Positions 11,395 through 15,784 of a stretch of DNA of 64,000 nucleotides are shown here, piece by piece. A program made the translations under genes and the position numbers. Position 1 is the first letter of the stretch. Each line of letters starts with the position of its first letter. The stretch spans positions 1 through 64,000 of the forward strand of contig NZ_AOIJ01000087.1 of the NCBI RefSeq assembly GCF_000337175.1, read 5' to 3'. The stretch comes from Natrinema gari JCM 14663. GTDB taxonomy: Archaea > Halobacteriota > Halobacteria > Halobacteriales > Natrialbaceae. A model generated the notes under the pieces. That model was not told the origin of the DNA. It made no database searches and saw only the letters and a list, made by a program, of their open reading frames with translations.

Positions 11395-11624
11395 AGCGGG
11401 CGGGAACGCGCCTCGGTCACTGCGCGAGATACAGCCCGACCCTCGCGAGCGGTAAGCACGTGCTACGCGCGAGTCGAGTGATGGAACAGTTACCGGCGGA
11501 GACGGCAATAGCGCATTACGACCCGGCTCGTGCCGGCCGCCAGAGGGGGGTCGAGAAACGAGACACTGACGCGACGGGACGGCCCTGGTGACTCAAGTGC
11601 AGGTTGGTCACATGGCCTAGCGAG

Positions 11625-12899
11625 ATGGCAGACGATACACCCCCGTCCGAGACACCGACGCAGCGGCGACTGACGACCGATCCCGAGCGCATCAGGAAGT
11701 GGGCCGAGGCTCGCGACGCCGTCCCGGTCAGGATTCGGGACAGCGAAGGGCACGGCTACTCCTTCGCTCGCCGCGACGAGCTGGGCGAGCGCCACGAGGA
11801 GGTCACCTGGGACGAGTTCACGGAGCGGTTCGAAGACGACGACCTCGTATTCGTCTACCACGAGGCGGAGCCGACCGGGGAGGAGATGGGCTTCTTCGAA
11901 ATCGTCGAGCGCGATCGGGCGTTCGAACGCGCCGACCTCGGCCGGGACGAACTCGAGGATTCGCTGCGACGCGGCGAGACGGTGACGGCGGAGATCGTCG
12001 AGACGCAGGTCGTCGAGACCGAGGTCGTCGAGCGGGACACGATCGAGAGCGAGGTGATCGATACGGAGCTGGTCGAACGCGAGGTCGTCGACTCCGAACG
12101 GCTGTCCCGCGATATCGTCGACACCGAGTTCGTCGGCGACGACACGATCGAGGTGGTCGTCGACGAGACGCGCCTCGACACGATCGAGGAGATCGAACGC
12201 TACATCGTCGAGAGCCGCGTCGTCGATATCGATATCGAACAGGATCAGGAGATGGAACGCGACGTCGTCGAAACGGACATCGAACTCGAGAGCGTCCAGC
12301 GGTCGATCCTCGAGAGCGACGTCCTCCGGTCGAGCGTGACAGCCGACGACGTCCTCGAGCGGGAGGTCATCCAGAGCCAGCGGACGGAGGGCGACACCGT
12401 CCGAAGCGAACTCATCGAGCGGCGGACCGTCGAGGAGGAACTCGACGAGCGGCGGCGGCTGAGCTACGTGTTCGAGGAGTTGGAACTGCTCGAGGCCGAG
12501 ATCGTCGGCAGCGAGGTGATCGACGGGGAGATTATCGATATCGAGGAGTACGACAGGATGGAGACCGGCGAGATGGAAGCCGGAGCCGTGGGCGACGAGT
12601 CGACGGCGAGTCTCGAGTCCGAGACCGGCGTGGGGTCGACGAAGGAACCGGCGGACGCGTCGCCGATCGAACTGTCACACCACGATCAGGGGAAAGACGT
12701 CGTCGACGAGTCGGGCCAGCAGATCGGCATGGTCGCCGAGGTCGAGGGCCAGACCGCGTACATCGATCCGGAGCCCGGACTGACGGATCGGCTCAAAGCA
12801 CGTCTGGATTGGGGCGGCCACGGCGACGAGGACTATCCGGTCGACTCCGCACAGATACTGGAGATCACGGACGACGAAGTCGTCATCCAGAGCGAGTAA
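11625..12899 (+). CDS. Pentad-repeat protein with C-terminal PRC-barrel-like domain
   Basis: A 424-aa acidic protein of unknown function. Residues 1-115 form a moderately conserved N-terminal region (TDPERIRKWAEARDAVPVRI). From residue 124 to about 273 the sequence runs in an uninterrupted five-residue register, with units such as IVETQ, VVETE, VVERD, TIESE, VIDTE and LVERE. Hydrophobic residues fall at positions 1 and 2 early in the run and at positions 1 and 5 later. About 30 units occur without insertion or deletion. The C-terminal 75 residues (GKDVVDESGQQIGMVAEVEG) look like the PRC-barrel fold common in haloarchaea. A TTG at 11604 is in frame upstream, but the ATG at 11625 (MADDTPPSE) is preferred. 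No signal peptide or membrane segment is seen. It converges on katG with a hairpin between them. Confidence 0.85.
   Translation: MADDTPPSETPTQRRLTTDPERIRKWAEARDAVPVRIRDSEGHGYSFARRDELGERHEEVTWDEFTERFEDDDLVFVYHEAEPTGEEMGFFEIVERDRAFERADLGRDELEDSLRRGETVTAEIVETQVVETEVVERDTIESEVIDTELVEREVVDSERLSRDIVDTEFVGDDTIEVVVDETRLDTIEEIERYIVESRVVDIDIEQDQEMERDVVETDIELESVQRSILESDVLRSSVTADDVLEREVIQSQRTEGDTVRSELIERRTVEEELDERRRLSYVFEELELLEAEIVGSEVIDGEIIDIEEYDRMETGEMEAGAVGDESTASLESETGVGSTKEPADASPIELSHHDQGKDVVDESGQQIGMVAEVEGQTAYIDPEPGLTDRLKARLDWGGHGDEDYPVDSAQILEITDDEVVIQSE
11994..12443 (+). repeat. Fifteen-nucleotide (five-residue) tandem coding repeat
   Basis: Within the pentad-repeat protein, about 30 consecutive 15-nt units encode [V/I/L/T]-x-[E/D]-x-x pentads. 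The first ten units (11994-12143) are the most similar at DNA level, with GTCGTCGAGAC-like cores, while later units have drifted at DNA level but kept the amino-acid register. The repeat is protein-level structure rather than a CRISPR or intergenic array. Confidence 0.85.
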
Positions 12900-12995: not shown

Positions 12996-15185
<2,190 letters not shown>

Positions 15186-15424: not shown

Positions 15425-15682
15425 TTACGTGCCGGTGTTTCGGCCCGTCAAATCGACGATCAGGTAGTCGTCGATGTCGTTCATACGGCTGGCCGGGACG
15501 ACGAGTTTGCCGTCGTCGTTCGTGTCGAACCCGCGAACGTCGTCGGTCGCCGGTGTAACGAGCAGCCGTTGCAGTTCGCCGGTTTCGACGTTCATCGTGA
15601 TGTTGTGAACCGTCCCGATTTTCGTCCCGTCGGAGCCCATCACCGGCGTATCGGAGAGCGTGGAAGCAAGGACCGTTGTCAT
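15425..15682 (-). CDS. Small PRC-barrel domain protein (CdpB-like)
   Basis: An 85-aa single-domain PRC-barrel protein: LASTLSDTPVMGSDGTKIG, VHNITMNVETGELQRLLV, then DDGKLVVPASRMNDIDDYLIVDL. The length and the GSDGT...ITMN...GEL pattern match small haloarchaeal PRC-barrel proteins, including the cell-division proteins CdpB1/CdpB2 described in Haloferax. Assigning it to that function is inference. Two ATGs are possible. The one at 15682 (MTTVLAST) is preferred because the TATA-like TTATTTTA at 15711-15718 lies about 32 nt upstream, giving a near-leaderless transcript, whereas the 15694 ATG would sit too close. It is a free-standing gene between katG and the RimK fusion. Confidence 0.85.
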   Translation of the reverse strand: MTTVLASTLSDTPVMGSDGTKIGTVHNITMNVETGELQRLLVTPATDDVRGFDTNDDGKLVVPASRMNDIDDYLIVDLTGRNTGT

Positions 15683-15784
15683 GCGAGTCGCCATTCACAG
15701 AACAGATCAATAAAATAACCGGAAGTGGCGGCGCTGGACGACGGCTCGCGGGGAGCCAGTCCGTCCCCGCGGCTCCCTGGCGGC

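Follow-up and report, generated by a model that had tools for sequence, protein, structure and literature searches.

What kind of protein is encoded at 11625-12899 (+) of the Natrinema gari JCM 14663 DNA analysed here (64,000 nucleotides, hereafter the window), where a long run of five-residue units precedes a putative PRC-barrel domain, and how would such a run fold? To our knowledge, five-residue solenoid units are represented essentially by the pentapeptide repeats alone. The first-pass annotation of this DNA counted about 30 units at 11994-12443, coordinates that do correspond to residues 124-273 counted from the ATG at 11625, and, knowing of no named family that combines them with a PRC barrel, suggested that they may be undescribed.

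The gene and its product

The protein of 424 amino acids is encoded by 11625-12896 (+). From the ATG at 11625 the protein begins with MADD/MAND, which is conserved among homologues; an alternative in-frame TTG start is possible at 11604. The product has a pI of about 4.1, a net charge of -87 and no cysteine. Inspection by eye revealed no signal peptide or membrane segment in the 424 residues, and the protein is probably cytosolic. Its best protein match, from Natrinema pallidum, is 92% identical, and the dN/dS of the whole gene (0.28-0.39) indicates purifying selection. Opposite the repeat, an antisense ORF at 11855-12181 (-) would encode 108 amino acids rich in Ser and Thr; it looks mechanical, a product of the GC-rich codon pattern.

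A genuine five-residue period

The proposed five-residue period is genuine. Over residues 119-308, the only peaks in the BLOSUM lag scores are those at 5, 10, 15, 20 and 25 residues (z 5-8), and the hydrophobic power is strong at period 5.0, where none of 1000 shuffles matched it, and absent at 3.5-3.75. Starting from V120, 12 aliphatic residues follow one another at exact spacings of five, compared with a mean of 4.4 and a maximum of 10 in shuffled sequences (n = 5000). When 655 ORFs of at least 200 amino acids, drawn from the window and 20 homologous loci, were ranked by five-residue periodicity, members of the family filled the top 19 places, the window protein being second; the most regular of all is a distant homologue (L210) that reads VVETE VVETD VLESE VVDSE LIASD VLESE VVDRE VVDTT. 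Hydrophobic moments of the pentad segments are 0.34-0.51 at 72 degrees and 0.01-0.11 at 100 degrees. Because the period is exactly five residues, with no component at 3.5 or 3.6, an ordinary coiled coil is excluded for residues 119-308, as the annotation had concluded for the heptad form; neither a heptad nor a hendecad hydrophobic period is present. Recent expansion of the repeat at the DNA level was also rejected, the tandem signal in the DNA being weak (68% matches).

The run is longer than first described and its register is not strict. The roughly 30 units noticed initially are real, but the whole pentad region spans residues of about 119-308 (11979-12548, +) and comprises about 37 units arranged in two arrays. 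The first, phase A, covers residues 119-223 (11979-12293, +) with a unit of about [VI][VI][ED][TSR][ED]; it is strongest and gapless at 119-173 and distorted at about 174-193, and the periodic amplitude falls at about 170-194. A four-residue unit, VQRS, at residues 224-227 (12294-12305, +) then slips the phase by one residue, and phase B follows at residues 228-308 (12306-12548, +). The hydrophobic phase is accordingly 4.5 (mod 5) as far as about residue 224, and between about 228 and 304 it is 3.5. V/L224, Q/H225 and R226 of the slip unit are conserved in the family. This single slip accounts for the shift of hydrophobic residues from unit positions 1 and 2 to positions 1 and 5 that the first-pass annotation described. 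Profile alignment of the two arrays with hhalign gives E-values of 1e-8 to 1e-9, a similarity that could reflect a shared repeat pattern.

Comparison of homologues further contradicts a register free of insertions and deletions. Inserts of up to about 80 amino acids are tolerated at the 173/174 boundary, and at 205-217 there are small insertions or deletions whose lengths are not divisible by five. By contrast with the earlier suggestion that copy number might vary in multiples of five residues, the number of repeats is essentially fixed across the family, and the length of residues 117-162 is identical in 86 of 89 homologues.

Within the genus, the pentads have a dN/dS of 0.23-0.34, compared with 0.7-0.8 in the linker that follows them. 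Scored over 54 diverse representatives sharing less than 80% identity, the near-invariant residues are E126, E131, E136, E141, S142, E143, R162, E181, T186, E191, E196 and S197, the first four of which occupy unit position 3. Family-wide, Val, Ile and Thr make up about 42% of residues 119-173, a strongly beta-branched composition in which Ala, Pro and Gly are scarce.

Flanking domains and linker

The first-pass annotation overlooked a conserved N-terminal domain at residues 17-96 (11673-11912, +; TTDPERIRKWAEARDAVPV...WDEFTERFEDDDLVFVYHE), which is homologous to bacterial hypothetical proteins of about 90 amino acids. In tblastn searches, proteins encoded on Rhizobium and Sinorhizobium plasmids (TTDHKKIRKWAEERDGRPA...WDEFF...LAFLYQ) matched with 38-42% identity (E 3e-7 to 4e-6), and the homology covers the whole domain, residues about 17-107. 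A consensus sequence of the bacterial type hit this region of the genome with an E-value of 1.8e-14. No Pfam model matched the N-terminal domain over threshold. Unlike the haloarchaeal protein, the bacterial proteins stand alone, without repeats or a PRC domain. One of them, a 91-amino-acid ORF of a Rhizobium sp. NXC14 plasmid (L113, 1471-1746, +), displays the pattern IRxWAExRxGxPA ... WDEFF ... LAFLYQ; this bacterial domain has no Pfam entry over threshold either, and in haloarchaea it is joined to the pentad module.

Downstream of the pentads, a variable acidic linker (residues 309-347; 12549-12665, +) differs freely in length among homologues and leads to the C-terminal domain (residues 348-424; 12666-12896, +). 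The fusion to a PRC barrel proposed for this end holds in so far as the domain is PRC-like, but its Pfam matches are all below threshold: PRC (PF05239) was among the weak matches of 10 of 24 members, with a best E-value of 0.0014, and the best score, 18.7 bits, lies below the gathering cut-off of 21.2. With hhalign, 63 colinear columns were aligned with haloarchaeal PRC proteins (E 4e-4, probability 33%), the PRC profile consisting of two sequences. The domain was also found alone in a Halobaculum plasmid protein annotated as 'PRC-barrel domain containing protein'. CdpB-type haloarchaeal PRC-barrel proteins, such as the one encoded in the window at 15425-15694 (-), align colinearly with it, but they are single-domain proteins, whereas the C-terminal domain described here has its own conserved motif, YVDPxPGLTDRLKARLxWG, and falls below the Pfam PRC threshold.

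The modules are separable, since a homologue on a Halomarina sp. PSR21 plasmid (L111, 1403-2545, +) has no N-terminal domain and a shorter first array. A relative of the C-terminal third with an in-frame TAG (L076, G054:C1:2882498-2882998) could be a copy in decay, its genome having no full-length match.

Distribution and genomic context

The pentad protein represents a conserved haloarchaeal family that is genuine and uncatalogued. Homologues were found in 101 of the 391 sampled genomes of the class Halobacteria, and a sample of the phylum gave matches in 13 of 295 genomes, all within the same order. In the host family, Natrialbaceae, 65 of 125 genomes match at an E-value of 2e-58 or better. 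Of 29 genomes from the genus, 23 encode the full protein, which is thus common but dispensable. Several copies are carried by plasmids, and no relatives were found on viral contigs. Two genomes, G356 and G366, each carry two diverged full copies (L194, L195; L187, L189).

No neighbouring gene recurs across 25 diverse loci, and the gene stands alone, without operon partners. The order oxidase, glycosylase (AlkA), pentad gene, KatG, followed further on by a CdpB-like PRC gene, is common to Natrinema loci. In the window, the KatG-type catalase-peroxidase gene (12996-15134, -), which has two peroxidase stretches, is convergent with the pentad gene; the two genes are neighbours in Natrinema and at a few further loci of Natrialbaceae, but at no others. 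The CdpB-like gene at 15425-15694 (-) lies two genes downstream, matches Pfam PRC with an E-value of 2.8e-9, and occupies this position in most of the Natrinema loci examined.

Candidate folds of the pentad module

The absence of a named family for the repeat was borne out by searches of Pfam, NCBIfam and PHROGs, which returned no match worth naming, and of PDB sequences, which returned none; in the literature we found nothing on this haloarchaeal pentad family. The evidence speaks for a folded module that consists mainly of beta-structure: its periodic positions are beta-branched, Ala, Gly and Pro are few, the pattern gives no amphipathic helix, the length is fixed and Glu residues form columns. 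The fixed array length and purifying selection, set against a linker that varies freely, likewise argue for a folded domain rather than for slippage-prone low complexity. A short-coil beta-solenoid would be the simplest means of repeating every five residues, and residues 119-308 may well adopt such a fold. The reading that we consider the most likely, if still a tentative one, is a long, acidic rod of beta-structure that connects two docking domains.

Several observations count against a solenoid rod. Gly, Asn and Pro are usual at solenoid turns, but they are nearly absent from the pentad region. As there are two adjacent hydrophobic positions per unit, a simple strand would turn one of them outward. 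No coil length is preferred by either lag comparison or covariation: autocorrelation of the residual profile gave nothing significant for coils of 10, 15 or 20 residues, and mean-field covariation over a shallow alignment (124 sequences, Neff about 80) gave scattered top pairs with no lag preference. Finally, no solenoid was seen in two low-confidence AlphaFold2 models, of the whole protein and of residues 113-311, for which only six close homologues were supplied (mean pLDDT 40.6 and 50.1); the only element of moderate confidence was a helix in the second array, at residues of about 240-294, where the block pLDDT of the second model reached 87, and residues 121-180 were coil. We regard these models as uninformative on the solenoid, not as refuting it.

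An alternative that we judge unlikely is a beta structure other than a solenoid, made either of hairpins with antiparallel strands or of a fibrous oligomer with swapped strands. Two adjacent aliphatic residues per unit cannot share one core in a simple strand, and a dimer or higher oligomer would be needed to bury both; in the first block, similarity at lag 10 is slightly above that at lag 5, and AlphaFold2 gave no fold for the monomer. The fixed length and the near-invariant positions, however, point to a specific fold and fit a monomer as well as an oligomer.

Less likely still is a divergent relative of the pentapeptide repeats, that is, a right-handed quadrilateral beta-helix with four units per coil and an acidic, DNA-like surface, in which V/I would replace the central L/F in the register [S/T][E/D][V/I/L][V/I][E/D]. 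Pentapeptide repeat proteins (PF00805; Rfr fold) also have a unit of exactly five residues, long uninterrupted runs and, like the present module, a probable beta architecture. Read from unit position 4, the haloarchaeal pentads resemble the broad pentapeptide consensus (PMC8145042) in that position i-2 is small, i-1 acidic and i hydrophobic, and it is in this register that a central L/F is commonest (8 of 37 units). All five published sets are satisfied by at most 2 of the 37 units, however, and no run of at least eight contiguous units fits the consensus with a central L/F. Arg is common at i-2, which would be buried, and R162 is near-invariant. The PF00805 unit, (A/S/T/V)(D/N)(L/F)(S/T/R)(G/x), differs from the haloarchaeal [VI][VI][ED][TSR][ED], which has few L/F, almost no Gly or Asn and a fixed number of units. 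PF00805 and its relatives were absent among the matches of 24 members at E-values up to 10, the most periodic homologue gave no match to the family either, and no PDB chain was found, in agreement with the initial view that these are not canonical pentapeptide repeats.

It is improbable that the sequence is largely helical or an intrinsically disordered acidic chain whose pentad pattern arises secondarily from its biased composition. The AlphaFold2 helix and coil segments and an Asp plus Glu content of 34% are consistent with such a chain, but shuffles of the same composition lack the periodicity, the hydrophobic residues are not spaced as an amphipathic helix would require, and near-invariant residues and a fixed length persist over deep divergence.

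Remote membership of DUF2382 (PF09557), the Val/Glu/Arg-rich C-terminal domain of YsnF/AvaK, which the annotation had suggested checking, keeps similar company in that it shares a protein with a PRC barrel, but it is very improbable and at the sequence level largely refuted: none of the 24 members matched at E-values up to 10, profile comparison gave scores at the shuffled level, the DUF2382 sequences used (two, which Pfam assigns to this family at 91-94 bits) lack a 5.0-residue period, and none of the 391 Halobacteria genomes had a DUF2382 match over the cut-off. Two tblastn searches of plasmids found no DUF2382, possibly owing to the low-complexity filter.

Proposed role and significance

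In the acidic beta rod that we prefer, the fixed-length pentads of residues 119-308 would fold into a beta-structure that is elongated and has short turns, probably a beta-solenoid with short coils. Aliphatic residues would be stacked inside, and Glu/Asp in the third and fifth positions of the unit would create an acidic, cation-binding surface stable in molar KCl. The rod would act as a rigid spacer or scaffold running from an N-terminal docking domain and connected through the flexible acidic linker to a C-terminal, PRC-barrel-like docking domain. A more detailed proposal, which we find doubtful as a whole, is that of an undescribed class of beta-solenoid, with [VI][VI][ED][TSR][ED] pentads in two arrays offset by one residue, conserved acidic ladders that bind K+/Na+, and folding only in molar salt, serving haloarchaea as a rigid spacer between docking domains.

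By analogy with the PRC-containing YsnF/AvaK stress proteins, the expected role of the protein would be in a partner complex assembled or protected under stress; this role is suggested by the comparison and is not a result of the analysis. YsnF/AvaK (PF05239 and PF09557) are soluble and also tether a Val/Glu-rich, quasi-repetitive domain to a PRC barrel, but in the reverse order, and the haloarchaeal protein differs from them in having no DUF2382 homology, an additional N-terminal domain and a pentad period. In its way of working the pentad module may resemble pentapeptide repeats or DUF2382, but by sequence it belongs to neither.

If the proposed fold is correct, these pentads, highly acidic, fixed in length, conserved in haloarchaea and distinct in sequence from the pentapeptide repeats, would constitute a second family of five-residue units, missing from Pfam and NCBIfam. 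The fusion would also supply the first context for an unnamed domain of small bacterial proteins, and the module would be a good model for how repeat proteins with a mostly negative surface fold in molar KCl.
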